A stretch of DNA of 45,582 nt, taken from the NCBI GenBank assembly GCA_003158875.1, contig PMLK01000039.1:2721-48302 (forward strand), written 5' to 3'. Below are positions 13,626 through 41,038 of the stretch, piece by piece; position 1 is the first letter of the stretch, and each line of letters begins with the position of its first letter. The position numbers and the translations under genes are program-made. The notes beneath the pieces were generated by a model. The model was given only the letters and a program-made list of their open reading frames with translations. It was not told the DNA's origin and ran no database searches. The DNA comes from Chloroflexota bacterium (GTDB lineage Bacteria; Chloroflexota; Limnocylindria; Limnocylindrales; CSP1-4).

Positions 13626-16055
13626 CTAAGCGGCAGCGGCCGAGTTGAGACGCAACGCGGCCGTCGACCTGGCCGCGCTGGACCCCAGATCGAATCGGCG
13701 AAGTCGCAGCGAGTTGGTCACGACGCTGACCGATGAGAGAGCCATGGCGCCCGCCGCGAGCGCCGGGTTGAGCGTGACACCCAGGATCGGGAATAGCGCG
13801 CCCATCGCCACCGGGATCAGGACTACGTTGTAGCCGAAGGCCCACAACAGATTCTGGCGAATCACGCGCCGGGTCTGGCGGGAGAGCCGGATGGCCGTGG
13901 CCACGGCTCGCGGATCGCCACCGACCAGCGTCACGTCCGACGCTTCCATGGCCACGTCCGCGCCCGTACCGATAGCGATTCCCACGTCCGCGCGCGCCAG
14001 CGCCGGAGCGTCGTTGATACCGTCACCGACCATCGCCACTCGCCGGCCGCGGGCCTGGATGGCCGCCACGGCATCGGCCTTGCCGGCCGGCAGCACTTCC
14101 GCCATAACTCTCCCCGGGGCGATTCCCACGGCCGCGGCCACGGAACGGGCGACGCGGAGACCGTCGCCGGTCACGAGCCAGACTTCGACGCCTGCCGCGG
14201 TCAGCTCCCGAACGGCCTGGGCAGCTTCGGGCTTGATCTCGTCCACGGTCGGCAATAGGCCGGCGGCCCGGCCGTCGATCGCGACGTAGGTGACGGCCGA
14301 GGCAGCTTCGGACGCCGAGTGGGTCGCTGACGCCGCTTGCGTTGCCTGCGTCGCTTGTGTCATCGCCGAAGCGCTCCCCCCGGTCTCCGCGGAGTGAGAG
14401 GCCGCGGCCAGTGCTCCCAGTTCGACTCCCTCCGACTCGAGGTAGGCCGCGGTTCCAACCAGCACAGTTCGCCCGTCCACGCGGCCTCGCACGCCACGCC
14501 CCGTCACGGCCTCGAAGGCTTCCACCGTTCCTCGACCGATGCCGAGTTCGTCGGCGCGGGCGAGGATCGCCGCGGCCAGTGGATGCTCACTCCCCCGCTC
14601 CACGGCCGCGGCCGCGTCGAGTACCGCCACCGGTTCGAACCCCGGCGCGGTTACAACGTCTCCGAGCGTGGGCCGGCCGCGAGTCAACGTTCCGGTCTTG
14701 TCGAACACCACGGCCTGTATGCCGGCCGCAAGTTCCAGAGCCTCGCCGCCCCGGATGAGAATGCCCGCTTCGGCGCCCTTGCCCGTCCCGACCATAATCG
14801 CCGTCGGCGTCGCCAGACCCATCGCACAGGGGCACGAAATCACCACTACCGTGATGAAGGCAACGAGCGCGTGAGTGACTTTGGGATCCGGACCGAAGAC
14901 GTACCACAGGCCGAACGTCAGCGCTCCGAGGCCGAGCACCACCGGCACGAATATGCCGCCGATCCGATCCGCGAGCCGCTGAATCGGAGCCTTGGAACCC
15001 TGTGCCCGCCGCACCAGGTCGACTATGTGGGCCAGCGCCGTGTCGTGCCCGACCCGGGTCGCGCGGAAGAGGAACGTGCCCCGGCCGTTCATCGTGGCCC
15101 CGATGACCTGCGCCCCGGAACTCTTCAGGACCGGCAACGGCTCGCCGGTCAGCATGGATTCGTCGACGGTCGACTCGCCCTCGACGACCTTGCCATCGAC
15201 CGGTACCCGCTCGCCGGGCCGGACACGCACGAGGTCGCCGACACGAACGTCCTCCAGGGGAACGTCGATCTCAGCGCCGGCCCTGACGATGCGAGCCGAT
15301 TGCGCCTGCAGGCCGAGTAGCTCCTTGATCGCTCCGACGGTCTGGGACTTGGCCCGCGCCTCGAGCCAGCGACCCATCAGCACCAGCCCGACGATCGCCG
15401 TCGAACTGTCGAAGTAGGTCTCAGGTTGAATGCCGGCCGAGCGGAGGATTTCGGGGGCGACGGTCACCAGCACACTGTAGGCCCAGGCGGTTGTAGTGCC
15501 GACCACCACGAGGGTATCCATACCGGTGGACCGATGGATCGCCGATCGCCATGCCGCTCGATAGAAGCGCCGGCCGGCCCAGAACTGGACGAAAGTGGCC
15601 GGGCCCAGCAGCAGCCAGGCCAGCTGCTCCATCCCGATCGGCAGCGACGGGGCGTACATCAAGCCCATCGCGACGGCCGCCACGAGCAACGCCACGGCCG
15701 CCGAGATTCCCAGCGAACGTCTGTCGTGGGCTCGTTCCGCGGCCTCGGCATCCGCTTCGTCGGCGAGGCTCAAGGCCGTTCCGTCGGCGGCGGCAGGGAC
15801 CTGCCGAACCTCGTAGCCGGCCGCCTCGATGGCCCGCGCCAGTTCGTCGAGCCCCGCGATCTCGGGCAGGTATCTGATCGTGGCGACTTCCGTGGCCAGA
15901 TTCACATTGGCTTCGGCTACGCCCGGGGTCTTGCGCAGAAAGCGCTCAATCCGGTTCACGCACGAGGCGCAGCTCATGCCCTCGATGGGCAGCGATATCT
16001 CCGCGGAGACTGTCGGGGAATCAGGAACTGATACTGTCGCGCTTGGTGTTTCCAT
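13626..16055 (-). CDS. copA: Copper-translocating P-type (P1B) ATPase
   Basis: Exports Cu(I) across the membrane at the cost of ATP. 809 residues. The N-terminal heavy-metal domain has its CxxC at Cys29/Cys32 (GMSCASCV). The transmembrane metal site is CPC in [11 protein letters not shown] (about residue 406), the phosphorylated Asp is in DKTGTLT (about 450), the nucleotide-domain HP motif is SEHPLAAAI and the hinge is [21 protein letters not shown] 16055 is chosen because a TTGCCG-17-TATACT promoter ends 10 nt before it, giving a nearly leaderless mRNA; the ORF continues upstream to 16115 but would run through the promoter. Odd: an Ala/Ser/Thr/Gln-rich insert ([20 protein letters not shown]) in the nucleotide-binding domain. 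Confidence 0.94.
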
Positions 16056-16070
16056 ACTCCCGGGGAGTAT
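16054..16070. promoter_or_regulatory. CsoR-like operator overlapping the copA -10 box and start
   Basis: ATACTCCCGGGGAGTAT is an inverted repeat with perfect 7-bp arms and a CGG centre. GC-rich cores flanked by ATA/TAT are typical of copper-sensing CsoR operators in front of copA genes. It overlaps the copA -10 hexamer and the start codon, so a bound repressor would block RNA polymerase. No csoR gene is in the window. Confidence 0.6.
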
Positions 16071-16094
16071 AGGCGTGTCGAGTCCATTCGGCAA
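16066..16094 (-). promoter_or_regulatory. copA promoter
   Basis: On the minus strand TTGCCG (16089-16094) and TATACT (16066-16071) are separated by exactly 17 nt. The expected start site falls at or a few bases before ATG 16055, so the transcript would be leaderless or nearly so. Confidence 0.65.
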
Positions 16095-16140
16095 CGATCC
16101 AGACTCGACAACCACGATTCAGGCTCAGTCGCAGACCTGG

Positions 16141-16158
16141 TACCGTCGGGGGTATTCT
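16141..16158 (+). promoter_or_regulatory. Candidate promoter and imperfect copper-operator-like site of the divergent MFS gene
   Basis: TACCGTCGGGGGTAT (16141-16155) is an imperfect TACC...GGTA dyad overlapping a TATTCT -10-like box (16153-16158) that ends 8 nt before ATG 16167. No good -35 box is seen. The resemblance to CsoR-type sites is suggestive only. Confidence 0.3.
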
Positions 16159-16166
16159 TTCGCGCG

Positions 16167-17459
16167 ATGACCACGGCACCTGCCCACGACCCAGAGGTCA
16201 CCACTACGGAGATCCAGGTCGACGTGCACTTGACCACGCCGTGGACTTTGCGTGCCATCTACACGGCGATTGGCCTCTCGACGGCGTCCCTGGTCACGTT
16301 CGTGCCGGTGATTCTCAAGACCCGCGGCCTGGACCCGGCGGTGATCGGGCTCGTGGCTTCGCTGGGGGCCCTGCTCTCCACCCTGGTTGTGCCGTTATGG
16401 GGCCACCTGGCCGACGCCGTTGTGGGGCGGATCCGCGCCTTTCGGATTGGGTTGATCCTGGCCTCGACGGCGGCCGTGGGACTTCTTCTCGACCTGCCTC
16501 TGGCGCTCATTGCTGTCTTGCTCGCAACCTTCACGATCTATGCAAGCCTCTTCATTGGGCTGGCCGACTCTCTGGCGGTGGCGGAATTGCCTGCCCCTGA
16601 ACGCCAATACGGGGCCTTACGAGCCCATGCCAGCCTGTCCTACACGGTCGGCATCGTACTCGTGGGATTCCTTTACAGCTGGTCGGGCTACGGCCTGGCG
16701 CCCGTGGTCTTCCTGGTTTGGGCCGTCAGCCTGTTTGTGCTCGTCGGTCGCATTCCGGATCCGACGAGGCCGGCAAAGACTCGGACCGACTCCTCTGTGC
16801 CCGGGAGTCGTCGGACGATCCGTTTTGGCTCGCCCGGTCGGGCGGTGGCGGTCCAGCCGCGTCTGCTGACCATCATGATCGTCTTCGCCGTCGCCTTTAC
16901 CGGGATCCAGGGGGCGCTGACCTTCATCGGGATCCGGATCATTGAGCTCGGTGGACAGCCATCCGACGTAGCAATCTCATTCGGAGTCGCGGCGCTGGCC
17001 GAGATTCCGGGTCTGGTGGCGGCTGGATGGCTGGGGCGGCGGATCGGGCTGCGGCCGCTCCTGGTGGCGTCGTTGACCCTTTACGGGCTGTGCATCGCAT
17101 CGTGGGGCGTCCTGCCGATTGCGGTAGCGATCAACGCCACCCGCGCGGTCACCGGTCTCTGCAACGGAGCCCTCATGGCGGCCCGGGTTCTGCTCGTCCC
17201 CCGACTCCTGCCACGATCTCTCCAGGCTACTGGGCAGGTTCTCTTTCAGGCCTCCAGCCTGGGTTTTGGCAGCGTCCTGGGAAGTGTGGTCGGAGGGATG
17301 GTCTACGGCGCCTTCGGCCCCGCGATCTCGTTTGCCGCGGCAGGGAGCGTCGCGATCGCGGGCGGCCTGGCGGCATGGTTCGTACTGGACGGTGCGATTG
17401 GTGGAAACCTGACCGGAACGACGCCCGACGAACGGCGCCTGCACGACCCACTGGGCTGA
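16167..17459 (+). CDS. MFS transporter, divergent from copA
   Basis: A 430-residue carrier with about 12 hydrophobic segments in two halves joined by a charged central loop (DPTRPAKTRTDSSVPGSRR). The segment GALRAHASLSYTVGIVLVG resembles the conserved loop of the MFS_1-like/LacY-type group, and LGRRIGLRPLLVASL is a motif-A-like loop in the second half. The substrate is not readable. ATG 16167 lies 8 nt after a TATTCT box and may be leaderless. It shares a 111-nt regulatory region with copA, so a link to copper uptake or stress is possible but unproven. Confidence 0.85.
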   Translation: MTTAPAHDPEVTTTEIQVDVHLTTPWTLRAIYTAIGLSTASLVTFVPVILKTRGLDPAVIGLVASLGALLSTLVVPLWGHLADAVVGRIRAFRIGLILASTAAVGLLLDLPLALIAVLLATFTIYASLFIGLADSLAVAELPAPERQYGALRAHASLSYTVGIVLVGFLYSWSGYGLAPVVFLVWAVSLFVLVGRIPDPTRPAKTRTDSSVPGSRRTIRFGSPGRAVAVQPRLLTIMIVFAVAFTGIQGALTFIGIRIIELGGQPSDVAISFGVAALAEIPGLVAAGWLGRRIGLRPLLVASLTLYGLCIASWGVLPIAVAINATRAVTGLCNGALMAARVLLVPRLLPRSLQATGQVLFQASSLGFGSVLGSVVGGMVYGAFGPAISFAAAGSVAIAGGLAAWFVLDGAIGGNLTGTTPDERRLHDPLG

Positions 17460-17490
17460 CTTCGACCGCGAACGAGGTACCTGGTTAGCG

Positions 17491-17540
17491 TGGCACGCCC
17501 GGGATGATTCGAACCCCCGACCCTCTGATCCTAAGTCCGG
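17491..17540 (-). tRNA. 3' half of a tRNA (degenerate; likely attachment-site remnant)
   Basis: Read on the minus strand, the sequence runs from an anticodon-loop-like CTTAGGATCAGA through the T-arm GGGGGTTCGAATCATCC to the acceptor strand CGGGCGT and an encoded GCCA end. The T-loop TTCGAAT and the GATCAGAGGG junction resemble bacterial tRNA-Arg. The T-stem has a G-A mismatch, and upstream of the anticodon region the D-arm cannot be folded; an ACGCACG at 17572-17578 only imperfectly matches the acceptor. It is therefore unlikely to be a working tRNA. Its 5' side faces the accessory region, as expected for the att scar left when an island integrates at a tRNA anticodon loop. Confidence 0.5.
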
Positions 17541-17740
17541 TTCCCGTCAGAGCAAGCAGCTAGAGTCGATTCGTGCGTGGAACGGCCGTCGCGAGGACGC
17601 CGTCTTCGTCGATTCCGGGATGAGTCTGGATCCCGCCCCGGAGAGAGTCTTGGTCCCATCGCGGGAACCTGAAAGATTCCGATGCCTCGTCGGAATCGTT
17701 TCCTTCAAATGCCCACCACGAGACTTAGGGTTGAATCATA

Positions 17741-17770
17741 CGCCTCGAGGCGGACGTGTTCGCCTCGAGG
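17741..17770. repeat. Tandem CGCCTCGAGG palindromic boxes spaced by 20 bp
   Basis: CGCCTCGAGGCG is a perfect 12-bp palindrome at 17741-17752, and its first ten bases recur at 17761-17770, exactly two helical turns further on the same face of DNA. They lie about 80-110 nt upstream of the regulator gene at 17850 and look like paired operator boxes. The rest of the 17541-17849 spacer shows no gene. Confidence 0.45.
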
Positions 17771-17799
17771 CACGGTGTCGCGGCGCAATACTAGCGTGC

Positions 17800-17844
17800 T
17801 TGACTCAGGGATCCTCGTGCACTCATACAGCACTCGGAGTGCAC
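17800..17844 (+). promoter_or_regulatory. Promoter and nested inverted repeats in front of the MNT regulator
   Basis: TTGACT (17800-17805) is followed after 18 nt by CATACA, a plausible -35/-10 pair. GTGCACT (17817-17823) and AGTGCAC (17838-17844) form a 7-bp inverted repeat around this -10, and a second dyad GCACTCGGAGTGC is nested inside. GGAG (17836-17839) is the ribosome binding site for ATG 17850. The layout fits autoregulation by the downstream DNA-binding protein. Confidence 0.45.
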
Positions 17845-17849
17845 TATAG

Positions 17850-18470
17850 ATGCACCGCCAGCGGCCAATGCAAATGCGCCAGTCTGGACTCTTTGGCACG
17901 GCGGCCGCAATGCGGCTGATCGGCCTTTTGTATATCAACCCTGAGATCTCGTTTCGCCTCATCGAGATTCAGGCATCTCTTCGCGACTCAGTGAACCGCC
18001 GGGCCGCGATCAACACTCTGAACCGGTTGATTGCCGACGGCTTCGTGGAGAAGATCGGCAAGGGTGAATCTTCGCGCTATCGAGCCAACCCCCGGTGCTT
18101 CGTGTTCGACGAGCTCGCCTCAATCGCCGTCAAGACTCTTGGTGGGTACGAAGAACTCATCGAAGAGCTCGGTCATGATCACAACATCGTGACCGCGGCG
18201 ATATACGACTCGTTCGCCAAAGGCTCGCAGCGTGCCGATTCCGACCTCGACCTAGCGTTGGTTGCACGAGATCCCGGGGCGTTGTCACTCTTTGATCTGC
18301 TCGGGAAGATCGAGACAATTGCTGGTCATGCGGGTCGACAGGTGAACACAACCACCCACACTGAGTCCGATGCCGCCGCCGGCGGGAGCGAATTTCTCAG
18401 CAAGGTTCTCAACGGCCCAGTCATCTGGCTGAAGGGGGGCGATCGTGGCCCGCATAACGACGCCGGCTGA
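17850..18470 (+). CDS. Winged-helix regulator fused to an MNT-type nucleotidyltransferase domain
   Basis: A 206-residue two-domain protein. Residues 15-90 form a winged helix (RLIGLLYINPEISFRLIEIQ, then RRAAINTLNRLIADGFVEKIGKG). Residues 105-200 are a minimal nucleotidyltransferase: IYDSFAKGSQRADSDLDLALV contains the G-S (125-126) and paired acidic residues D132/D134 of the polymerase-beta superfamily. Such proteins occur in toxin-antitoxin-like and conflict loci, often beside a HEPN gene, and can act as autoregulators or as AMP-transferring antitoxins. GGAG lies 10 nt before the ATG. A second start with a strong ribosome binding site overlaps its end (18445) but opens only an 18-codon frame. 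Nested inverted repeats upstream suggest autoregulation. Confidence 0.75.
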   Translation: MHRQRPMQMRQSGLFGTAAAMRLIGLLYINPEISFRLIEIQASLRDSVNRRAAINTLNRLIADGFVEKIGKGESSRYRANPRCFVFDELASIAVKTLGGYEELIEELGHDHNIVTAAIYDSFAKGSQRADSDLDLALVARDPGALSLFDLLGKIETIAGHAGRQVNTTTHTESDAAAGGSEFLSKVLNGPVIWLKGGDRGPHNDAG

Positions 18471-18501
18471 TTTGTTCGTCACCGAAATCGGCGCCTCATG
18501 A
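18445..18501 (+). pseudogene. Stump of a gene coupled to the MNT regulator
   Basis: GTG 18445 has a strong GGGGGG box 5 nt upstream and overlaps the end of the MNT gene by 26 nt, the usual set-up for a translationally coupled partner. The frame stops after 18 codons (VARITTPADLFVTEIGAS) and runs into the tail of the convergent WD40 pseudogene. I read it as a truncated partner gene, possibly a lost HEPN-type protein; the product cannot be identified. Confidence 0.3.
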
Positions 18502-20553
18502 ATTCAGGCACTTCGAGGTCGGACTCGTCGTACGTCGCTCGGATGGGATCTGGCTCCCACTTCGTATCTCCCCACATCCGCGAAGCTGGCGGCGCGTCTT
18601 CGGGCCGTGGCTCGGCGCCCTGAGCCGGCCGGTTCCCTGCCAGCAGTTTCAGGATCCGGACCCGCCCGACCGTGTCGCCGGAGGCGATCAACGAAGGGTC
18701 CGCGGGCACGGTGCGGCAAGTCGTGATGCGAGTGCCATCGTCGGGCGCCCACGAGACCAGCTCCCGACCGTCCGTGACATCCCCCAGACGGTGAGTGGCT
18801 TCCCGTCGGCGCAGGTGACGAACCACCGACCATCCGGCGTCACCGCCACCGAGAGGATCGGGGCTTTGCCGCGGTCCAGCGTCAGCACGCGCCGGTCCTC
18901 CACGAAGTCCCAGACGCGGGCCACGTCGCTCGTTCCCCCGTAGATGAGTTCCGCCCATCCGGAGTCAACGCAATCGCTCGAACCGCGCCCGCCTCGCCTT
19001 TGAACTCCCAGGGGTGACCGCGCTCCGGCCAGAGGTGGAGGGTGCCGGACTCGTCGCCGGCGATCAGCCCTTTGTCACCCGGCCGAAAGGCGATCGAATG
19101 AACCAGGCCCCGGTGAGTATCGAGCTTCCTCGCGACGAGCCGGCTGGCTAGATCCCAGACCCAAGCGGAGTCGGGCCAGCCGCCGGCAGCGACCTGCTTC
19201 CCGTCCGGCGACACCGCCAGAGCCCTGATCGGGCCGGGGCTGCCATCGAGCGTGCCCTCTCGCCGGCCCGTGGCGAGATCCCAGATCCGCAGGACACCGT
19301 CCAGATCGCCCGAGAGGATCTGAGTGCCGTCCGGAGTGACCGCCACCGAAGTGATCGAGCGCGAGTTGCCGTCCAGGTGGCAGAGGACCCGGCCGGTGGC
19401 GCCGTCCCAAACGAGGACCACTCCGTCCTCGCCGCCGGAGACAATCCGGCTGCCGTCCGAGTTGGCGGCCACCGCCCACACTGGGCCCTCATGCCCGTCC
19501 GTGGCCGGCACCCGGCGGGGACGGCTAATATCCCAGAGACGCAGGGCCAGCTGGTGGCCGAAGGTGACGACCCCGGTGCCATCGGGAGTGACCGCCGCAC
19601 CGAGCAAGATGCTGCCGGGAAGATTCGAGCACCCGGAGGGCTCCGAGCAGCCGGGCGTGAGCCAGGAGCCTGGCCAAACGCCCGGGGGGTACTCGAGGGT
19701 CTCTTCGAGTTCGCCCGTCGCAAGGTTCCACACGTGCGTCGCGAGGCAGCCGTCCGCCGTGACGACGCGAGTTCCGTCCACCGTGATCGCGAGCGAGTGG
19801 GCGCCCCTGCTGCCGAACGAGCGCTCCAGGGTGCCGGTCGCGAGATCGAAAGCGCGGAGCGGGCCGCTCGTAGGGGCCGAGATGACGCGGCTTCCGTCCG
19901 GGGTGATCGCCACGGCTTGAATGCCGCAGTCGAATGGCTGGCCGTGAGGATTCGTTCCAGCCGATCGCTCGCCAGATCGAAGACCCGCACCGTCCCGTCC
20001 CCGCCGTTGCCGATGTCGGCGCCCGAGACTACGCGGCATCCGTCCGGTGTCACCGCCAGCGCCGCTACGCTGCCGAGCTGCTCCCGGAGCGCGTATTCGA
20101 AGTCACCAGTCCCGAGGTTCCAGACGCGGATCGAGCAATCCTTCCCGCTCGAGATTGCGCGCTTGCCGTCCGGCGTGACCGCCACGGCCAGGACGGGCTC
20201 CACGTGCCCCTCAAGCGTCAGCTCCAGGCTGCCGGTGCGATATCCCAGACGCGGACAAGCGAGTTGTCGTACGCGGCGACGATCCGCCTGCTGTCGGGCG
20301 TGATCGCCAGCGCAAACACGCGACCACGGACGCCGCGGAACTCGCGCTCCAGGCCACCCCCGGCGAGGTCATGGACCTGGAGCTCGTAGCCGCCCGACAC
20401 GACGCGTCGCCCGTCCGGCGTGACCGCCGCCGCCCGCACCCAATGCGTCTGGCCCGGCAGGTCGCGATCGCGCGGGCCGCCCGGTAGCGGGAGGGCCGGG
20501 ACGAGCGGAATGAGGGATGGCCAGGTTGGGTTTCGCTCACGGCCTTCAGGCAT
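18479..20553 (-). pseudogene. WD40-repeat protein gene broken by four frameshifts
   Basis: Conceptually a WD40 propeller protein of about 690 residues starting MPEGRERNPTWPSLIPLVPALPLPGG, the same pre-propeller segment as the intact 14-blade protein at 22690. Blades of the form AVTPDG..VVSGG...VRVWDL continue through three reading frames. Protein homology to neighbouring blades breaks and resumes in another frame near 20237 (WDIA to TGSLELTLEGH), 19945 (RILT to GQPFDCGIQAVAIT), 18952 (PDGR to ELIYGGTSDVARVW) and 18785 (LTVW to DVTDGRELVSW). Each is a net shift of one base. Either the gene has decayed, or the consensus sequence is poor here; the intact repeats at 22.7-24.7 kb argue for decay. 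It overlaps the preceding gene by 8 nt (ATGCCTGA). Confidence 0.75.
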
Positions 20554-21225
20554 TGCGCGCGCCTCTCTTGCCGCTCTTCACGCTCACCGCGTAGTTCGAG
20601 GCCTCGAACTCATCATGGTGCTCACTGTAGTAGGACCAGATACGGTCCACCTCGATCAGGACCGGGCACGCCTCGGGGTGGACGCGGATCGTGATCGTCG
20701 TGTCGGTGGCACCGTTGTCGCCGATGGCCCACGAGTTGGCGACGGCCCTGGCCTCGATCCCCGGGAGAACCCTCGACCACTCGGCCGACAGTCTGCCGAG
20801 TCCACCCACCGTCCGCCGGACTTGAGCCGACGAGGGTAGTCGCCGCGGAGTCCGAAGTCGTTGCCACGGTACCGCTCAGTACTGGAAAGCGTGACCTCAA
20901 CCGGCTCGTCGTTCGCCACGAGCTCGACCTCGACCTCGACCTCTACCGAGTATTCGGTGCCCCTGCCATTGGCGCTCGGCCGCCGCATTGCCGATGACCT
21001 CGCCGTGTGCCGCGCCGGGTAGTCGGCCGACAGCAAACCCTCGTCATCGGCCGCCGCGCCTGCCCAGCTAGAACACTCATCCAATCGCGAACTGGTTCGG
21101 CGTCCCCCGTGCGGGCCGGTCTTCAGGTCAAAATCGTACGCCTCCACGCCGATCCCTCTGCCCGCGGACCATCAGTCGAGCTGAAGCTGGTCGATCTTGG
21201 TCACAATCAGACGAGCCCTGATCAT
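20546..21225 (-). pseudogene. Unknown protein gene with an in-frame stop and a frameshift
   Basis: ATG 21225 overlaps the stop of the HEAT gene as ATGA, a translational-coupling arrangement. The frame opens MIRARLIVTKIDQLQLD, meets TGA at 21174-21172, then continues in the same frame as EAYDFDLKTG and YSVEVEVEVELVANDEPVEV; after a frameshift near 20815 it ends DRIWSYYSEHHDEFEASNYA and KSGKRGARNA. GTG 21147, behind AGAGGG, could rescue a shorter product. The protein is not recognised; it has a beta-rich centre and no signal peptide. It sits between the HEAT gene and the WD40 pseudogene in the same operon. Confidence 0.5.
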
Positions 21226-21545
21226 CGGCTTCTCGTTCTCGTCCTTATCTCCTTCATGGCGTTGCGGGATTCCTGGGCCACGCCCCAGCGGGCCTGGTTC
21301 TTCGGGGCGCCAGGGACGAAAAGGTAGGGCTCCTGGTTATCCGGGTGCCTAGCGGCTCTTCGAAGGGCCGGGAGGGCGCTCTCATCTCCGACCTCTGCCA
21401 GAGCACAGGCGGCTTCCATGCGCACGACCGCGTCCGGCGAGTCGGCCAGCGCTTCGACTAGTGTGCCCACGTCCCGTTTGGCCTCAAGCTTCTTGATGTC
21501 TTTGGGTTTGAGCTTTCTGACGTCGGGTGGTCCGAATAGCGGCAT
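21222..21545 (-). CDS. HEAT-repeat mini-protein (MPLFG type, copy 1)
   Basis: A 107-residue protein starting MPLFGPPDVRKLKPKDIKKL, with HEAT-like helices LVEALADSPDAVVRMEAACALAEVGDESALPALRRAA. AGGAGG lies 9 nt before the ATG. It is a paralogue of the plus-strand gene at 22269, sharing the MPLFG start and the VR-EAA-AL-GDESAL helix pair. It heads the decayed minus-strand operon (unknown protein, WD40 pseudogene) and overlaps the next start by ATGA. HEAT repeats are protein-binding scaffolds; the partner is not known. Confidence 0.75.
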   Translation of the reverse strand: MPLFGPPDVRKLKPKDIKKLEAKRDVGTLVEALADSPDAVVRMEAACALAEVGDESALPALRRAARHPDNQEPYLFVPGAPKNQARWGVAQESRNAMKEIRTRTRSR

Positions 21546-21967
21546 GACGAGGTGCCTCCTAGCGGGACATTGTAACTGGGCAGTGGACCGCCTCGGAGCC
21601 CGGGATTTCCGCGGAAGTCACCTTGTCAGGCGGACCCCCAATCTTGGATAACCGCCGCCTGGACGTGAAGGCTTGCCGGGCCTCCCCTCGGATCGAGGCG
21701 ATTCTGTTGCCGCGAACAAGGTCGTGGGTGGCGCTTGCACTACCAAAGATCGTCATCCGGTCGGTCCGAGCCAATCGCCCTTCAGCTCGGCATCGGACTC
21801 GAGTCGACTGGCCCGAGCTGACTCCGCGCCCGTCAGGTGCGGCCTAAGGCCGATGCTCGGCTCCGTCACACTGATGGACGGTCTAGTCGGCCGCCCGAGG
21901 TGCGTGGCGGAGGGATGGCGGCGCAGGCTATTCGGACTCTTCCGCAACAAGAGAAAGGGATTGGAGC
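21546..21967. other. Spacer with no convincing gene
   Basis: 422 nt between the two divergent small operons. The reading frames here (for example 21559-21774 minus, 71 codons) have no recognisable motif or good ribosome binding site. It should hold the promoters of the HEAT gene at 21545 and the membrane-protein gene at 21968, but no clear -35/-10 pair stands out. Confidence 0.4.
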
Positions 21968-22201
21968 ATGGCTCCTGAGCTCCTGCTGGTTCTGGGCGCG
22001 GTCGTTTCGATCGCTGGAATCATCGTGATCGCGCTTGCATGGATGATCGAGCGCCGCGACGACGAGAAGTACCCGTCGCCCGTACCTCTGTCCATCTACC
22101 ATTCGGCCCCCTACAACCGCAGGATGAGAGCGGGAATCGTGTTTGTTGTCGTTGGTGGATGCATCGTCCTCATTGGGTTGGTGCGGCTCCTGGTGCGATA
22201 A
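21968..22201 (+). CDS. Small two-TM membrane protein, 77 aa
   Basis: Two hydrophobic segments flank a short charged loop: LLVLGAVVSIAGIIVIALAWMI, then ERRDDEKYPSPVPLSIYH, then AGIVFVVVGGCIVLIGLVRLLV. AAAGGG lies 8 nt before the ATG. No known family is recognised. It precedes the second HEAT mini-protein gene by 67 nt on the same strand, so the two may be co-transcribed. In a conflict locus a two-TM protein of this size could be a membrane anchor or pore subunit, but nothing in the sequence proves that. Confidence 0.55.
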   Translation: MAPELLLVLGAVVSIAGIIVIALAWMIERRDDEKYPSPVPLSIYHSAPYNRRMRAGIVFVVVGGCIVLIGLVRLLVR

Positions 22202-22268
22202 TCGGAATCCCTTCCTACGGGCGGATCGACGGCGCAGGAAGACAGCGATTGGCATGGAGGAACCGGTA

Positions 22269-22628
22269 ATGCCGCTATTCGGGCGACCCAACGTCGAGAA
22301 GCTCGAGGCCAATGGGAACGTACGAGCCCTGATCAAAGCGCTGAGCTATGCGCCAGACCCGCAGGTGCGAATAGAAGCCGCGGAGGCTCTCGGACGAATC
22401 GGGGATGAGAGCGCCTTGGGTCCGCTCTCAGAAGCATCCGAGGATCATGCGTGGGGCGACGATCAGAGCGTGGCTAATGCAGCCGCGGGCGCGCTCGGCA
22501 AGTTCACCCTTCGTCGCATGCAAGAGGCGGTAGGCGATGGTCCCATAACCGACGAGGACATCAGAATCGCCGACGACTACTGGGCCTCGGTCGGAACGCA
22601 GCGGGTACCTGATCGCGACAGCCACTGA
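22269..22628 (+). CDS. HEAT-repeat mini-protein (MPLFG type, copy 2)
   Basis: A 119-residue paralogue of the gene at 21222: MPLFGRPNVEKLEANGNVRA, then LIKALSYAPDPQVRIEAAEALGRIGDESALGPLSEAS, with the same helix pair. GGAGG lies 8 nt before ATG 22269, which fixes the start against an in-frame ATG at 22254. The C-terminal 50 residues (LRRMQEAVGDGPITDEDIRI) differ from copy 1. It is convergent with the large operon: its stop is 62 nt from the last WD40 stop. Confidence 0.75.
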   Translation: MPLFGRPNVEKLEANGNVRALIKALSYAPDPQVRIEAAEALGRIGDESALGPLSEASEDHAWGDDQSVANAAAGALGKFTLRRMQEAVGDGPITDEDIRIADDYWASVGTQRVPDRDSH

Positions 22629-22689
22629 AGGGGACGAGGAAGAAGTAATCGGACGCACCAGCCGCCAGGGAGCTGAGGGGTCCCGCTGG

Positions 22690-24747
22690 CTACTCGAGCA
22701 GCAACAGAACATGGATGCCACCGATCTCGTCGCCGTAGACAAAGAGCCGCGCGTCCGTGTGCACGGTGCAACTGGCCGAGACCATGACACCAGGATCAGT
22801 GATCCAAGATGCCACTTTCTGTCCGCTGCCAAGATCCCAGACGGACACCGTGCCATCGTCGCCTCCCGAGATGATGCGTCTGCCGTCAGGCGTTACCGCT
22901 AGCGCATTCACGCTACCCGTGTGGCCCTCCAGCGTGCACTCCGGGCGGCCGGTCTGAGTACTCCAGACCCGGACCGTGAAGTTCTTATAGCCAACGCCGC
23001 CATCACCCGAGATCACCCGTCTGCCGTCCGGTGTGACAGCCAACGCCTGGACAATAGTGTCGTGGCCCTCAAAGGTGCGCTCGAGACGGCCGTTCTCGGC
23101 GTCCCAGACCCGAACCAGCTGGTCGGCGCCGCCCGAGACGACCCAGCGGCCGTCCGAAGTAGTCGCCACCGCCAGTACCCCGCCGGCGTGGGCCTCGATC
23201 GCGAGTTCGAGATTGCCGCTGGCAAGATCCCAGACGCGCAACGCGCCGTCCATGCCACCCGAGACGACCCGGCTACCGTCGGGGGTTACCGCCAGCGCCC
23301 GTACGCCGCCGTAGGCGCGGTGACCTTCGATGGTACGTTCGAGGCGGCCGGTCGCGAGATCCCAGACCCGCACCCTGCCGTCCATGCCGCCCGAGACGAC
23401 CCGGCTACCGTCGGGGGTTACCGCCAGCACAGACACTCGGCCATTCCCACCCGCGAACGTTCGCTCGATTCGACCGCTGGCGAGGTCCCGGACGCGCACC
23501 GTGCAGTCCTGATATCCATCGCCACCTGACACGATCCGACGGCCGTCCGGGGTGACCACCACCGCCCAAACCCGGCCCGTGTGGCCATCTGGCTTGGGCT
23601 CAGACTTGCCTCGCGCGAGATCCCAGACCCGCACCGAGCCGTCGTCGCTGCCCGAGACGATCCGGGTGCCGTCCGGGGTAACCGCTACCGCGCGTACTGC
23701 CGAAGCGTGGCCCTCGATGGTGCGCTCGAGACCGCCGCTTGCGAGGTCCCAGACTCGCACTATGCGCTCGTCCGCAGATACGATCCGGGACCCGTCCGCG
23801 GTGATCGCCATCGCCAGCACAAAGCCAGTGGAACCCTCGAGCGTGCGTTCCACCATACCGCTGGCGAGGTCCCAAACTAGAATCCCGCGGCCGGAGATCG
23901 ATGCCATGCGGGCGCCGTCCGGGGTGACCGCTACTGCGGTCCCATGATTCTCATGCGTACGTTCCAGTTTGCCGGTGTCGAGATCCCAGACTCGGACCGT
24001 GCCGTCATAGCTGCTCGAGACGATCCGGGCGCCATCCGGGGTGACCGCGACAGCCTCCACACGTCTGCTGTGCCCCGAAAGCGTCCGCTCCAGGCGGCCG
24101 CTCGTCAGATCCCAGACGCGCACCGTCTGGTCCGCGTCGCCGCCGCCCGACACAACCCGGCTACCGTCCGGCGTCAAAGCCAGCGACCGCACCCAATCAG
24201 TGTGACCCTCGAGAGTGCGTTCCAGGCGGCCGCTGACAAGGTCCCAAACCCGCACGGTGTTGTCGGCGCTGCTCGAGACGACCCGGGCGCCGTCCGGGGT
24301 GACCGCCACAGCAGACACCCTGGCGTGATGGCCAGTCAGCGTGTGCTCGAGACGGCCGGTCGCGAGATCCCAGACCCGCAGCGTGTGATCCTCGCTGCCC
24401 GAGACGACGTGGCGACCATCCGGTGTGACTGCCAGAGCGAGCACCCATTCACTCTGGCCGACTAGAACCCTTTCAAGCGGACCGCCCGCTCGGGCGAGCG
24501 ACGCGGTCAGAGGGCAAAGCCACGGCCGCGGCGCTCTATTGCGTATCTCACCCAAGAACCTGTCGATGCCAGGGTCGGCAGTTCCCACCAATCGGCCCGT
24601 GAGCTGCCCCGGCAGCCGCGCTGGATCCGCGGCGAGGAACGGAGCCGAGAGCTTCAGCGCTCCATCGACTGCCTCGAGGACGTGCGACCTCGGATCCAGC
24701 GTCACTTGAGAAGCACCACCTAGAACTCTGCCTTCATGACCAGACAT
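22690..24747 (-). CDS. WD40 propeller protein, 14 blades (operon gene 6)
   Basis: A 685-residue cytosolic protein. Residues 1-95 contain PWLCPLTASLARAGGPLERVL, preceded by a segment with LPGQLTGRLVGTADPGID; this linker is typical of NACHT/STAND-WD40 proteins, where it joins the ATPase to the propeller. Fourteen WD40 blades follow, most of the form GH..V.AVAVTPDG..VVSG..D.TVRVWDL..GRLERTLE, enough for two seven-bladed propellers. It ends in a degenerate blade (YGDEIGGIHVLLLLE) without the zinc ribbon found in operon genes 2 and 4. ATG 24747 overlaps the TrkA-RyR stop by 14 nt; an upstream ATG at 24780 is possible. I read it as the split-off sensor half of a DUF4062-NACHT-WD40 architecture. Confidence 0.88.
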   Translation of the reverse strand: MSGHEGRVLGGASQVTLDPRSHVLEAVDGALKLSAPFLAADPARLPGQLTGRLVGTADPGIDRFLGEIRNRAPRPWLCPLTASLARAGGPLERVLVGQSEWVLALAVTPDGRHVVSGSEDHTLRVWDLATGRLEHTLTGHHARVSAVAVTPDGARVVSSSADNTVRVWDLVSGRLERTLEGHTDWVRSLALTPDGSRVVSGGGDADQTVRVWDLTSGRLERTLSGHSRRVEAVAVTPDGARIVSSSYDGTVRVWDLDTGKLERTHENHGTAVAVTPDGARMASISGRGILVWDLASGMVERTLEGSTGFVLAMAITADGSRIVSADERIVRVWDLASGGLERTIEGHASAVRAVAVTPDGTRIVSGSDDGSVRVWDLARGKSEPKPDGHTGRVWAVVVTPDGRRIVSGGDGYQDCTVRVRDLASGRIERTFAGGNGRVSVLAVTPDGSRVVSGGMDGRVRVWDLATGRLERTIEGHRAYGGVRALAVTPDGSRVVSGGMDGALRVWDLASGNLELAIEAHAGGVLAVATTSDGRWVVSGGADQLVRVWDAENGRLERTFEGHDTIVQALAVTPDGRRVISGDGGVGYKNFTVRVWSTQTGRPECTLEGHTGSVNALAVTPDGRRIISGGDDGTVSVWDLGSGQKVASWITDPGVMVSASCTVHTDARLFVYGDEIGGIHVLLLLE
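23245..23428 (-). repeat. Near-identical 52-nt blocks in successive WD40 blades
   Basis: Blocks 23245-23296 and 23377-23428 differ at one base over 52 nt and are 132 nt (44 codons) apart, encoding the VTPDGSRVVSGGMDG part of blades 9 and 10. This indicates recent blade duplication or gene conversion. Confidence 0.75.
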
Positions 24748-26536
24748 CGCCCCGCCGCACCCGCACCACCGCGAACCCAATCTCCGCCAGGAACCCCGGT
24801 ATCCCCCGCACGGCCGCCCGATCCATCTCCTTGATGTCCTCGGCCAGATCCCCGTAGGAGACCAGGTATGGGCTTTCCTTCCGCTCCTCGTTCCGGGCCG
24901 CCGCCAGGCGCCACCCCGCGGCCAGGCGCTCCTTCATCCAGCGCTTATGCTCATCGGGCGCCAGCACCTCGATCTCGTCGGCCGCAAACGCCAGCGGCGC
25001 GGCGTCCCAGTCGGTCATGGGGACGATGTCGCAACCGATCAGGGCGAGCTTGCGGAAGATGTCGGCCGCCTGCGCCCGGTTCGACTCCTTGAGGGACTCC
25101 GGTAGCTGCGCCCACTCCACCATGGAGGGGTTCGTTTCGGCAGACTGTCCCTCCAGGCGCCGGCTCGCGACGTAGTTGGCATGGATTGCGCGCGCGAGGG
25201 TTTCGTTCTGCCCTGCCAGCAACACGTCCGGACGGCACACGAGGTCCAGGAGCCCGAACACGCTGAGGTTGCCGTACGTCTCGCCGTGGCCGTCGCCCAG
25301 AAGCGTGGCAATGCCTCCGCCCTGCGTGGTGCGGACGACGATCGGGACGGCGCGGTCGCCGAGGCGATGGCGGAGGTGCAGGGCCGCGCGGAGGCCGACT
25401 GCATCGTCGCCGACGCAGACATACACGCCGGTGACGTCCGACTTGCCACGGCGGCCGAAGAGGAAGTCGGCCCGCTCGAATTCGGCCGAGTCGAGATCCA
25501 CGCTGTGGGGCCTCAACTCGCAGGCATCAGCCAGGCGCGGGAAACGCTCGTGCAGCAGGGCGACCCGAGCGTCGGCCGCAAGATCGACCGCGGTGATCTT
25601 GAGCTTCTTGCCGCTCACGCCCGGAATGGACCGCCAGCGGCGAGCTGCATGCACGATGAGCCTGGTGCCCATCTCGCCGAGGCCCACGACCACGATGTGC
25701 GGCGCGCCCAGGGGAGTCTTGCCCTCGGCATCGAATGGTGGGTAGTCCGTGAGAAGCGCGGGCGCGCCCAGCTCCGCCACGTTGAAATACTCGATGCGCG
25801 CGCCGCCTCCACGGCGAGCCAGCCCCACCTGTCGGAGTACATCGGCGAGCTTGTCGTCCGTGACGTGGACGAAGCAGGTGAGCGGCGAGCCGCTCCGCAT
25901 GCCCGCCAGCGCGGCGGCGGCGATGGCGATGTCGGAGTTCCTGCCGTCGTCTCCCGCAACGGCAAAGAGGTACCCGGCTTTGCTCGCTCCGGCCCGGCGC
26001 AGCATGGCGGGATCCGTGCCGTCGCCCACAAGGACCACGATGCCAACCTCGCGGCAGCGAGCGATGGCGCCGTTCTCCATATCCGACTCGATGGCGACCA
26101 CCTGATACCCCGCCTCGCGCAGCGTCCTAGCGAGCAGCGAGCCGAGACGGCCGAGCCCGCACACGACCACGTGATTGGAATAGAACCGGACGCGGGCGGC
26201 GGCCAGCTGCTCGCCGAGAAGCGTCGCCAGCGCGCTCAGAGTTGCGCCGGCCGCCACCGCCGGAGCCAGGAAGCGCGCGATTTCGAGCTGCCACGGCACC
26301 GGCTGCGCCACGGCGCCGGAGTGGATGATGAAGAGCTGGAGCGTCCGGTACAGGTTGTCGAGGAAGCTGCCCGGCTCGCCGAGCGCCCGCGAGTTGAGGT
26401 CGAAACCGATCCAGCCGAGGACAAGGGCAGCCGCGAATAGGACGGTGATTGTTGGCCAGCGGACTGCGGCCCAGGCGCGGCTGAGGCGGCGCTGCCAGCG
26501 AGAAAGCAACGGCGAGGCGTCGCGCGTAGCGCGCAT
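24734..26536 (-). CDS. Two-TM, double TrkA-N, RyR-domain protein (operon gene 5)
   Basis: A 600-residue membrane protein. TM segments lie near 27-46 and 86-108, with a short loop between. A TrkA-N/RCK-like Rossmann domain follows (VVVCGLGRLGSLLARTL, GLGRLG at 127-132), then a second one near 282 (VVVGLGEMGTRLI). The C-terminus has RyR-like repeats: LARAIHANYV...WAQLPESLKESNRAQA (about 447-510) and KRWMKERLAAGWRL...YLVSYGDLAEDIKEMDR (about 525-595). The fold order recalls ligand-gated potassium channels, but the TVGYGD selectivity filter is missing, so it is not a normal K+ channel. RyR domains in bacteria are proposed to bind nucleotide-derived ligands. ATG 26536 is 4 nt after the previous stop. 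Likely a ligand-gated membrane effector. Confidence 0.8.
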   Translation of the reverse strand: MRATRDASPLLSRWQRRLSRAWAAVRWPTITVLFAAALVLGWIGFDLNSRALGEPGSFLDNLYRTLQLFIIHSGAVAQPVPWQLEIARFLAPAVAAGATLSALATLLGEQLAAARVRFYSNHVVVCGLGRLGSLLARTLREAGYQVVAIESDMENGAIARCREVGIVVLVGDGTDPAMLRRAGASKAGYLFAVAGDDGRNSDIAIAAAALAGMRSGSPLTCFVHVTDDKLADVLRQVGLARRGGGARIEYFNVAELGAPALLTDYPPFDAEGKTPLGAPHIVVVGLGEMGTRLIVHAARRWRSIPGVSGKKLKITAVDLAADARVALLHERFPRLADACELRPHSVDLDSAEFERADFLFGRRGKSDVTGVYVCVGDDAVGLRAALHLRHRLGDRAVPIVVRTTQGGGIATLLGDGHGETYGNLSVFGLLDLVCRPDVLLAGQNETLARAIHANYVASRRLEGQSAETNPSMVEWAQLPESLKESNRAQAADIFRKLALIGCDIVPMTDWDAAPLAFAADEIEVLAPDEHKRWMKERLAAGWRLAAARNEERKESPYLVSYGDLAEDIKEMDRAAVRGIPGFLAEIGFAVVRVRRGDVWS

Positions 26537-26540
26537 GTCC

Positions 26541-29081
26541 CTAGGGCCTCATGTCGGCGACGAAGCTGTTCACCCTGAGGATTTCGCCGCAATCCGCATT
26601 GGCGCAGGGAATCGGCATCCCAAGCTGCCCTGGCGCGACAGGGAACTCCGAGATGCAGACCGGACACAGAACGCGCGCCCCTGCTCCGCGATCGGCCGCC
26701 GTGACTACGGTCGGCCCAGGTGTCAGGCATTGCACGAGGCCCAGCTGGACAAATCCGGACTCGGTTCCCCAAGCCAGCATCGGGAAATGATCGTGGAAGA
26801 CGAGTGTGTCAGCGGAAATCCGCATCCGGGGTAGTGGCAGACACGCAATGATCTCCGAATGGCTCCCGCTGCCGATATCCCAGATCGTGAGTAGCTTGTC
26901 TCGCGTAACTGAGTAAAGGTACCGACCATCGCCGCTGAAACGGCAGGCCTCCACGGGGAGAGAATGGGAAAGGATCCCAACGGCGCGGCCCGTCTCAGAC
27001 ACCCACAGCCTCACCGTTGAGTCATCGCTGGCCGACGCGATTTTCGTAGCATCAGGGCTCACACAGAAGTCTCGTATCTGGGCCGTGTGACCTTGTAGGG
27101 TTGCGACGCGCCGCAGGCCAACGCAATCCCAGACTTCGAGTTCCTGTGAGCCCTCGGATGGAAGCGAAAGAACCAGGCGACTGTCAGGGCTGAATGCCCC
27201 AAAGGGGACATGTAGATCCTGGCCCGTTCGCGCATCCCAGAGGGATTGGTCGAATGCGACATATCGGCCATCGGGGCTGAAGACGCATGATCGCCCTTCG
27301 GACGAAGCCAGGCGCAGATCGTTCTGGAGATCCCAGAGATGGAACTTGGGAGGTCCAAACAACCCGCCCGCTCCTGCCGAGGTCGAGCGGATCGCCACTC
27401 TGAGCCCATCCGGTCCGAACGACGCTTCTAGGGGCCTGCCGTCGAGGTGGATCGTCTTGTCTTTCGTGCCTGTGGCCGCGTCCCAGATCTCACAATCAGG
27501 TTGGCCGTGGCCACCAGTCAGGACGAGATCGCCACTTGGACTCAATGCGGATGGGTCATCCTGCCAAGGATCGCCGAACTCTCGGAGCACCTGTCCCGAC
27601 TGAGAGCCGCAGAGCCTCACTGGCTCAGACTCGACGGCTGAAAGGAACACCCGACCGTCGGCGCTGAAGGTGATGGCGGCGGGCACCTGCACCGTCTTGA
27701 CGGTGCCATCGGATTGCCTACGGCGCCTGAGGCCGTAGGTCTCGATCTGACCCCCTGTTCTTGTGTCCCACAGAATCGCAGGGCTTGGGGACGACAATAG
27801 TCGACTGCCGTCGCGATTGAACGCCACCGCCGCGCCGCCCCATGCTGTCTGCTCCGTCGAGTCCGCCTCGACCCTGGCCGCGTCCCAGAACTTGATCTCA
27901 GGTCCCGAAACCGTGAGTATCTGCTCGCCGTCTGGACTGAATGCTCCGACGGTGCTGAACAATCCGGCTTGGGTGCCGGCTTTGAGCACCCCAACCTGGG
28001 AGCCGGTCTTTGGATCGGCGATCCACGGAAAGCTGGCTTTCCTTCCACCATGGACCAGCATCTGGCGTCCGTCTGGGCTGTACCTTGAGTTGTCGAAGAC
28101 AGCACCGGTTGTCGCCCCGAGCTTCCAGAGCAACTCGCCGGTACGCAGGTCGAAGACCTTGCAGCCATCGGTATCCATCATCGCTACTCTGAGACCATCG
28201 GGGCTGAGGTCGCACTCCTCTCGCGTGAAGGGCCACGCACGACCCTCCCAGTAAAACACCTGATGGCCGGAATCCCGATCCCATACTCTCCGCCCCGCGC
28301 CGCCGCCGTTCGGAAACTGGCCGGCCGTGAGAATGCGCGTGCCATCGCGAGTGAAGAGGCAGAGAGACATCGGCCCATCGTGCGACTTCATCTGCACGTG
28401 GAGTCTGCGCTGCGCCAGGTCCCAAACCCTGATCGTTCCATCTTTGCAGCCAAGGGCGAGCCAGCGCTCATCCGGGCTGAGATCCAGACAAGTGATGGGA
28501 TCCGATTGCTCGTACAGTGCAGCGCCCTGCTGCCCTGTCGCGGGATCTTCAAGATGAACAGAGTAAGTGGATTCCCAATGGCCGCTGACCAAGCGCCCCT
28601 TCATTCTTACTAGCAGCAGCATGCTGCCGGGCGAGAACGAAATGTCTGTGCCCCTGGTGAGGCGTTCTGCCCTGGTCCGGCGATCCCACACATAATGGTT
28701 CCCAGGGCTTACCGGCCCGGTCAGCAACACATATCGGCCGTTCGGGCTCACGTGGACTGCAGTCGGCTCGAAGGATGGATCTGCAGAAAGTGGCACTGTC
28801 TGAACCAGGGAGCCCGATTCGCCGGGTGGCATCATTATGCGGATCCAGGGGCGCGAGCCACGGACGCTCCGCTTGGCCCGCGCAGGCTCCATCTGCTCTC
28901 TGACTTTGTCGCCCTCCCATTGCAGCCAGTTGTGAATCTGCTGCCAAAGGATCTCGCGGTGCCCGGCGACGACATTTGCCTCGCGGCCGAGCGCTCGCGC
29001 GTAGGCCGACACCATCTCGAGTCTCTCATCCATGCTCAAGACAATTCCGAGACCGGCCTTTCCACTGCCCGATGAGCCCAT
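26541..29081 (-). CDS. WD40 propeller protein with C-terminal zinc ribbon (operon gene 4)
   Basis: An 846-residue protein. The N-terminal module (about 17-100) has ILWQQIHNWLQW and SRPWIRI, shared with operon gene 2. The middle is a long array of diverged WD40 blades with the SPDGR/SADG signature. The last 41 residues are a zinc ribbon (CPVC, then CANADC, then LRVNSF) like those ending genes 2 and 3. ATG 29081 starts 4 nt after the upstream stop with GGGGAAG close by; ATG 29033 (MDERLEM) is an alternative nearer to the conserved module. Base composition looks slightly less GC-rich than the neighbours. Role: probable recognition or assembly platform; no enzyme motif is seen. Confidence 0.82.
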   Translation of the reverse strand: MGSSGSGKAGLGIVLSMDERLEMVSAYARALGREANVVAGHREILWQQIHNWLQWEGDKVREQMEPARAKRSVRGSRPWIRIMMPPGESGSLVQTVPLSADPSFEPTAVHVSPNGRYVLLTGPVSPGNHYVWDRRTRAERLTRGTDISFSPGSMLLLVRMKGRLVSGHWESTYSVHLEDPATGQQGAALYEQSDPITCLDLSPDERWLALGCKDGTIRVWDLAQRRLHVQMKSHDGPMSLCLFTRDGTRILTAGQFPNGGGAGRRVWDRDSGHQVFYWEGRAWPFTREECDLSPDGLRVAMMDTDGCKVFDLRTGELLWKLGATTGAVFDNSRYSPDGRQMLVHGGRKASFPWIADPKTGSQVGVLKAGTQAGLFSTVGAFSPDGEQILTVSGPEIKFWDAARVEADSTEQTAWGGAAVAFNRDGSRLLSSPSPAILWDTRTGGQIETYGLRRRRQSDGTVKTVQVPAAITFSADGRVFLSAVESEPVRLCGSQSGQVLREFGDPWQDDPSALSPSGDLVLTGGHGQPDCEIWDAATGTKDKTIHLDGRPLEASFGPDGLRVAIRSTSAGAGGLFGPPKFHLWDLQNDLRLASSEGRSCVFSPDGRYVAFDQSLWDARTGQDLHVPFGAFSPDSRLVLSLPSEGSQELEVWDCVGLRRVATLQGHTAQIRDFCVSPDATKIASASDDSTVRLWVSETGRAVGILSHSLPVEACRFSGDGRYLYSVTRDKLLTIWDIGSGSHSEIIACLPLPRMRISADTLVFHDHFPMLAWGTESGFVQLGLVQCLTPGPTVVTAADRGAGARVLCPVCISEFPVAPGQLGMPIPCANADCGEILRVNSFVADMRP

Positions 29082-29085
29082 CGGC

Positions 29086-31752: not shown

Positions 31753-31803
31753 CTGTTCCTCCTCGTGTCGCGAACGACGCCACAGAGCTGCCGATTGGAT
31801 GAC

Positions 31804-33774: not shown

Positions 33775-33805
33775 TCGTCTGCCCTCCCGCCCCTTCCCTT
33801 GCCCG

Positions 33806-37072: not shown

Positions 37073-37323
37073 CGCTCGTCTCCCTCTCCGGCCGGAGACC
37101 CGACCGGACGTCACAGCCAACGCCGACACGACTCGGCGGCCACCACAGAGTAGCGCAGGCGAGTGGTGGAAACCGGGTGCCCGAACGCAATGCCACTGGG
37201 CACAACCAGCAGCGCCTGCAGCACCAGGTATGCCACGGCCATAGCCGCATCGGCGTGTTCAAAGGACGCCTTTCAACATTTGAGCAGATCCGCAGCCGGC
37301 GCAAGCGATTGCGAACTCCGACC

Positions 37324-37833
37324 CTAGCGGTGGCCTTCTTCGAGCTCTATCTGCTCGAGGGCTACGACGATCGCCAGCCCCATGGGGACATCGAAGCTGG
37401 GGGCGATCTGGACGGCGTAGCCGCCGTGCAGGCTCACCAGCTTGCGAGAAGCGACGATGACGTCCTGGCCGCCGTTGGTGATACGGAACTCCCGAGCGAT
37501 CCAATCGCCCTTGATGGCGAGAGTGTCGCCGTTGGCGGCCGTGACGGTGAAGTTGTCGCCGAAGAAGCTGACCAGCGACTTCTGGATGGTGACGACTACC
37601 TGATCGCCGCGCTTGATCTCGAAGGTCCTGCGCAGGTGACCGAGAGACTGGTTGATCTGATAGAGCACCGAGCCTTGCATGTCCTTGAGGACCAGGGTTC
37701 GCCTGATCGCGATCGCCTTGCCGTCAACCTCGAACACACGCTGCCCGTTGACGTCGTCGATCCACAGATCGCCGCCCACCGAAACCAGGCTCTGGTTGAG
37801 AACGAATGTCTGGGCTACCGGAACGAACGACAT
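37324..37833 (-). CDS. LURP-one-related (tubby C-terminal-like) protein
   Basis: A 169-residue beta-rich protein of the LURP-one-related family. Typical features are FVLNQSLVSVGGDLWIDDVN, VFEVDGKAIAIRRTLVLKDMQG and the recurring strand pairs around FEIKRGDQVVVTIQK. The fold is a 12-stranded barrel around one helix, related to tubby and phospholipid scramblase. Bacterial members are of unknown role and may bind lipid or nucleic acid. GGAG lies 10 nt before ATG 37833. It is on the same strand as the large operon but 251 nt upstream of it, so co-transcription is uncertain. Confidence 0.85.
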   Translation of the reverse strand: MSFVPVAQTFVLNQSLVSVGGDLWIDDVNGQRVFEVDGKAIAIRRTLVLKDMQGSVLYQINQSLGHLRRTFEIKRGDQVVVTIQKSLVSFFGDNFTVTAANGDTLAIKGDWIAREFRITNGGQDVIVASRKLVSLHGGYAVQIAPSFDVPMGLAIVVALEQIELEEGHR

Positions 37834-40210: not shown

Positions 40211-40230
40211 CGGTCTCTCCTCGTCCGCGC

Positions 40231-41010: not shown

Positions 41011-41038
41011 TGCCTGAACCTCTTCCGGGGGACGCGGA

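Follow-up and report, generated by a model that had tools for sequence, protein, structure and literature searches.

Does a truncated tRNA gene beside a set of conflict genes mark the point at which those genes entered the chromosome? The question is raised by a 45,582-nucleotide stretch of DNA (the window) from a Chloroflexota bacterium, whose genome is a draft, 91% complete. The original prediction saw in positions 17491-17578 the 3′ half of a tRNA and took it for the attachment-site scar of a tyrosine-integrase island that had brought in the neighboring conflict genes.

The tRNA-Arg(UCG) 3′ half

17491..17535, minus strand: tRNA-Arg(UCG) 3′ half, decayed (sequence reading and comparison with intact genes)

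Positions 17535 down to 17491 of the minus strand read CTTAGGATCAGAGGGTCGGGGGTTCGAATCATCCCGGGCGTGCCA. This is a tRNA-Arg(UCG) 3′ half that starts in the anticodon loop and ends in the encoded CCA. Both this reading and the matches to intact genes bear out the minus-strand 3′ half that had been predicted; its extent holds for 17491-17535 on that strand, while 17536-17578 is not tRNA but the end of an island. The intact tRNA-Arg genes of other genera match the window over exactly the 3′ half (e.g., 90% over 48 nt, E about 5e-12), and an intact gene of the same genus is identified by ARAGORN as a tRNA-Arg with anticodon TCG. Some match to a 95-nt query was found in 97 of the 126 genomes of the order, and most of the matches listed cover the tRNA half only. 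Thus far the window resembles islands whose integrases cross over in anticodon loops: it holds a displaced tRNA fragment that begins at the anticodon-loop crossover.

The half has decayed. Of its 45 bases, 6 depart from the genus consensus. Intact tRNA-Arg copies have 0-2 such differences (25 distinct copies in the loci examined), and halves joined to the island end described below have 0-6 (10 distinct copies); these copies were merged by sequence, so they are not genome counts, and were picked up only if they had six mismatches or fewer. The anticodon has changed from TCG to TAG and, because it would read TAG, we take the half to be no working gene. In line with the original prediction, ARAGORN found no complete, functional tRNA in the window, and no Rfam match for the feature reached the gathering score. 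The search for an intact tRNA of the same type in this genome (G000) led to C12:57023, where a 5′ half is followed by CTTCGGATCAGA and the contig ends. The probe that had been suggested recovered no second copy in this genome, in part because the anticodon base has decayed in the window (CTTAGG for CTTCGG).

Two other readings of the tRNA sequence were rejected. By eye, six of the seven bases of 17572-17578 could pair with the acceptor strand, with CTCTG/CAGAG correctly spaced. A complete tRNA with an enlarged anticodon loop would nevertheless be missing its D arm, ARAGORN was negative when introns were allowed, and in the relatives the 5′ part is an island arm. With a lowered threshold (-ps20), ARAGORN gave five candidates over a 300-nt stretch, which were taken as noise and not used. 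A group I intron in the tRNA was set aside as well, there being no Rfam match and intact tRNAs occurring apart from the joints.

The island end and the recurrence of the joint

17528..17537, minus strand: crossover core GACTTMGGAT, common to both kinds of junction in the genus
17538..17748, minus strand: conserved island end (the Y arm) adjoining the core (comparison with other copies)
17705..17714, minus strand: putative arm-type site 1, GGGCATTTGA (motif from integrase-side arms)
17675..17687, minus strand: putative arm-type site 2, AGGCATCGGAATC (motif from integrase-side arms)
17735..17740, minus strand: -10-like TATGAT at the inner edge of the Y arm (from sequence only; TATAAT or TACAAT in most copies)

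The tRNA portion ends at 17535, and the Y arm of about 210 nt follows the crossover core of the attachment-site joint, GACTTCGGAT. BLAST and pattern searches found this joint, an island end connected to the tRNA core, at 14 places (13, plus one interrupted by an N run) in 9 of the 21 genomes of the genus, and in this genus only; the three remaining pattern matches, in 3 of 86 other genomes of the family, have no tRNA half after them. Not all copies are whole: three in G045 and G038 contain an N run inside the tRNA half, one in G045 stops at a contig end, that of G043 is shortened near the acceptor end, and that of G053:C1 retains only the first bases of the half. All the named relatives are MAGs of Chloroflexi, and the isolate names of most contain “fen”.

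The window matches the same-genus joints with E values of 1e-16 to 1e-24. Against other full-length copies the similarity ends sharply, on the outer side at 17490, with the last base of the tRNA, and on the inner side at about 17686-17748. Since the similarity stops on both sides, the module travels with unrelated flanks, and an element-specific arm beside the core, common to copies that differ in their flanks, is what an island would show. Leftward from 17490, the sequence after the 3′ half matches no other locus examined. The joint pattern has no exact match among viral contigs, and a phage or plasmid origin was discarded, as all 12 phage records and the best 20 of 65 plasmid records align at the tRNA-half end only. 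At 17741-17771, just inside the arm, two copies of CGCCTCGAGGC lie 20 bp apart in an inverted repeat.

The partner integrase and its arm-type sites

As had been predicted, no integrase lies in the window; the six PF00589 matches in this genome all fall on other contigs. Contig C94, which carries the island of the window, has no such match; in G055 an integrase gene does lie inside the island. In G055:C99 and G054:C246, a tyrosine integrase with R, HxxR, H, and Y present in the usual order is found directly behind the 3′ end of an intact tRNA-Arg(UCG). In all three elements, the stretch between this tRNA and the integrase carries GGGCATCTGAYWC four times as a direct repeat, at spacings of 24-30 bp. 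When up to three mismatches are allowed, the motif, defined on the integrase-side arms, has at least one site in all 12 Y arms compared and in 39 of 500 mononucleotide-shuffled arms; the partial Y copies of G052 and G037 were left out, and five of the 12 Y arms carry two sites, 28-30 bp apart. The resemblance of the arm repeats to tRNA led us to consider a bridge-RNA-like guide. Because they also occur at intervals in direct orientation next to the integrase, the repeats are better read as arm-type sites.

The two ends come together on G055:C131, where an integrase end with a tRNA 3′ remnant lies at 104.6 kb and a joint of Y, core, and 3′ half at 46.3 kb, with no further Y or left-end motif between them. 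From their sequences and their orientation, which is as expected, these would be the two ends of one island of ~58 kb. At E 1e-40, the partner integrase is absent from the genome of the window and from seven of the eight other genomes that carry joints. Therefore, the link between integrase and Y arm rests on G055 and on the shared repeats, and the absence counts against a simple picture with one integrase.

Another integrase type stands behind an intact tRNA-Arg(UCG) in G038:C108. The homologous integrase of other genera often adjoins tRNA-Gln(CTG): among 30 integrase loci scanned, some of which are second integrases, 12 had tRNA-Gln(CTG) in the stretch covered, two tRNA-Arg(TCG), one tRNA-Thr, and 15 none. 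Viral contigs hold three distant relatives of the partner integrase (32-37% identity). At G055:C99:26742-32039, two related integrases face each other across a 1021-aa gene with a weak NACHT match; several other genera have facing pairs like this one, in which one integrase often adjoins tRNA-Gln(CTG). The genome of the window has integrase fragments at C81:91181-91378 and C4:15601-15849, beside tRNA-Thr(CGT) and tRNA-Arg(CCG), which are likely to be further island remnants. In two genomes of the genus, an IS-like stretch with GAGTCGCGACAT repeats (L162:3052-4180; L094) starts directly at the CCA end of a tRNA-Arg, and such a stretch also lies beside an intact tRNA-Arg in two other genera.

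The locus and its insert

13626..16115, minus strand: P-type ATPase, core left neighbor
16075..37318, no strand: insert relative to the loci of relatives, between the P-type ATPase promoter and the LOR gene (locus comparison)
16167..17459, plus strand: MFS transporter, part of the insert and not core here
17850..18470, plus strand: Polbeta nucleotidyltransferase protein with a weak N-terminal regulator match, beside the island end (PADLOC candidate PDC-M05A)
22690..37129, minus strand: conflict module of WD40, TrkA-RyR, WD40, DUF4062-NACHT, WD40, and RyR genes
37324..37833, minus strand: LURP-one-related (LOR) gene, core right neighbor
37907-38827 and 39596-42127: SDR and POR genes, next after LOR

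The P-type ATPase and POR genes share a contig in many genomes of the genus, 5-17 kb apart. Fourteen loci of relatives were compared, of which 11 have the ATPase together with POR, SDR, or LOR and the other three the POR side only. On the LOR side the homology of the window to these loci extends as far as 37319, and it picks up again at 16074, in the promoter of the ATPase gene; the 21.2 kb in between contain the joint along with the MFS and conflict genes. In the two loci checked for it, an O6-methylguanine methyltransferase gene takes the place of the insert. None of the 11 loci with both sides has, at the thresholds used, a tRNA, 3′ half, Y arm, 5′ half, MFS gene, or conflict genes (WD40 matches below 50% identity were dropped beforehand). 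The site is thus not a tRNA gene in relatives free of the island, nor does an intact tRNA bracket the island together with the fragment in the window, which has no tRNA. Relatives that have the fragment in the same context but lack the island were sought and not found; the empty loci are empty of the fragment too.

The scar does not lie at an edge of the insert but 1.4 kb inside it. The fragment had been placed exactly where the core genes stop, which is incorrect because the MFS gene to its left is absent from the locus of the relatives; core homology ends at about 16074, 1.4 kb further left. The edges of the insert share no repeat longer than 7 nt, thus none that would back a particular insertion route, and at its right edge there is no 5′ half, left arm, or integrase.

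The conflict genes are likewise found apart from this site. The module at ~22.9-37.0 kb recurs in G039:C131 with about 78-83% nucleotide identity in the non-repeat parts, at a different locus and with no joint within 60 kb around it, and it is partly present in G044:C22, on the opposite side of a Y joint. A search with its NACHT protein (E 1e-120) detected the module in only 3 of 107 genomes of the family. Given the empty loci and the module elsewhere, the locus and the module are both independent of this attachment site. Of the attachment-site scar originally predicted, the tyrosine-integrase joint with its crossover in the anticodon loop therefore stands; the scar as entry mark of the conflict island is not supported, there being no tRNA in 11 of 11 loci of relatives, a scar that lies inside the insert, and a module without scar in another genome.

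Origin of the joint

We propose that the feature is a fossil attachment-site joint of the attR type, which was probably formed at a tRNA-Arg(UCG) elsewhere and carried in with the insert. The order of the joint would be an element arm with arm-type sites for the integrase, then the crossover core, then the displaced tRNA-Arg(UCG) 3′ half. A tyrosine-integrase island would insert into the anticodon loop of tRNA-Arg(UCG), giving the working tRNA a new 3′ half at the integrase end and pushing the old 3′ half to the far end. After formation of the joint at such a locus elsewhere, homologous recombination, illegitimate recombination, or another element may have brought a 21 kb block with the joint, the MFS gene, and the conflict genes to the site between ATPase and LOR, and the tRNA half, no longer needed, would then have decayed. 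The identity of the tRNA, the recurring joint, the arm repeats at both ends, the integrase by the intact tRNA of relatives, and the tRNA-free locus support this proposal. Since the insert spans ~16075-37318 with the scar 1.4 kb inside it, the scar is most likely a passenger in the insert rather than its entry point.

An alternative explanation is that the scar arose in situ: a tRNA-Arg(UCG) would once have stood at this locus, perhaps in this lineage alone, the conflict island would have integrated into it, and the restored tRNA and the integrase would later have been lost. The form and orientation of the joint suit such a history, with the conflict genes on the element side, and array elements of the genus do carry tRNA-Arg copies about. 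The 11 tRNA-free loci speak against it, as do the non-core nature of the MFS gene left of the scar, the module without scar in G039, and the bare right edge of the insert. We regard an origin in situ as unlikely.

It is less probable still that the joint is an attP, that is, that a circular island (Y, core, 3′ half, left arm) entered by homologous or other recombination with its attachment site uncut. An attP would show the same order of Y, core, and 3′ half, but it should run on into the integrase-side arm with its repeats, and the window runs into the MFS gene, with neither repeats nor integrase.

To a similarly small degree, the conserved block might be a functional RNA, a structured transcript with the tRNA half as its 3′ end. 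The 12 aligned arms have a consensus fold of -39.6 kcal/mol, against -18.3 +/- 3.1 for 50 column shuffles that did not keep dinucleotides; the reverse strand of the alignment folds more weakly (-28.2), and -10-like boxes lie upstream in most copies. One arm hairpin folded alone gave z of -0.9 to -2.3 in the 9 of 12 copies from which the script could excise it. On the other side, compensatory changes affect only 4 of the 44 pairs of the arm fold, the 88-nt interval 17491-17578 folds no better than shuffles (z 0.80), the block of arm and tRNA half has no Rfam match of note, the repeated arm sites account for part of the conservation of the arm, and the window's copy of the tRNA half is in decay. 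Very improbable is a chance likeness or a join made in assembly at the repeated tRNA half, at which other contigs of the genus do break or hold N runs: the window matches same-genus joints at the E values given above, its copy lies six bases off the consensus and hence is not an identical repeat, and the core ATPase and LOR genes flank the insert on both sides.

A tandem array of tRNA-Arg(UCG) 5′ halves

G000:C12:22907-57065: tandem array, three complete units split by tRNA-Arg(UCG) 5′ halves

On contig C12 of the same genome, tRNA-Arg(UCG) 5′ halves occur at 22907, 45997, and 57023, with a gapped one at ~33190. Those at 22907 and 45997 are followed by the core and a conserved left end of about 185 bp, TGCCCGGACG..., that at ~33190 by an N run and the remainder of the left end, and that at 57023 by the core and the first part of an intact tRNA, where the contig ends. 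Ahead of each 5′ half lie an end some 210 bp long, which carries three direct repeats, GATCAGATGCTC, and an element-borne upstream region that replaces the native one; tRNA-Arg copies travel on these elements in this genus. The units measure 10-13 kb and hold metabolic genes where sampled, and no PF00589 match was found in four of four complete units (three here and one on G038:C108). When the array left end was compared with the Y arm as an inverted partner, the reverse complement exceeded all 200 shuffles in four of seven copies and did not in the other three.

The 5′ halves that part the tandem units are less ordinary than the scar. Like integron cassette arrays, C12 has repeated recombination-site-like junctions between cargo units; unlike them, its units are of 10-13 kb, its junctions hold tRNA 5′ halves, and neither an integron integrase nor attC is among the features identified. 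It is tempting to propose, as a tentative possibility, an integron-like platform in which the tRNA-Arg(UCG) of the genus would take mirror-image elements, bringing either a new upstream region and 5′ half or a new 3′ half. Integrase-less cargo units of 10-13 kb would be added in tandem through arm sites that copy the anticodon-stem half-site of the tRNA, with the integrase acting in trans, and finished joints like that of the window would be shed elsewhere with defence cargo.

Relation to known islands and meaning

The tycheposons of Prochlorococcus are tRNA-anchored islands with tyrosine recombinases, and the likeness of the present elements to them lies in these traits, by description and not by sequence. 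The scar itself is a textbook joint of a known kind. It is like the Islander islands, as these appear in excerpts of PMC4383910, in the integrase by an intact tRNA, the crossover in the anticodon loop, and the displaced 3′ fragment at the far end; it is unlike them in that the fragment of the window is decayed and away from any tRNA locus, with the intact partner and the integrase in relatives only. The excerpts of PMC9897764 describe tRNA fragments left behind by mobile elements as common.

Islands that leave a 5′ fragment are the closer comparison for C12. According to the same excerpts of PMC4383910, 159 of 3919 islands leave a 5′ tRNA fragment, and only four tandems of three or more were counted; those of PMC8371274 describe pTN3-type archaeal islands with a 5′ tRNA fragment and say that in bacteria a tRNA restored under a new promoter is rarely encountered. 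The array units likewise carry an upstream region with the tRNA-Arg 5′ half and leave a 5′ half. In contrast to the islands in these excerpts (PMC4383910, PMC8371274), they stand in a row, and four complete ones are without a PF00589 integrase, a difference that concerns the array and not the scar. A narrow literature search found nothing on islands of Limnocylindria and nothing relevant on tandem 5′ forms.

The scar carries a caution: defence genes that have a tRNA half next to them need not have entered at that half; the empty loci show that here the half came with the insert. For this uncultured Chloroflexi genus, the finding points to tRNA-Arg(UCG) as a hotspot at which 5′-half units, rare in bacteria, stand in tandem without an integrase of their own.
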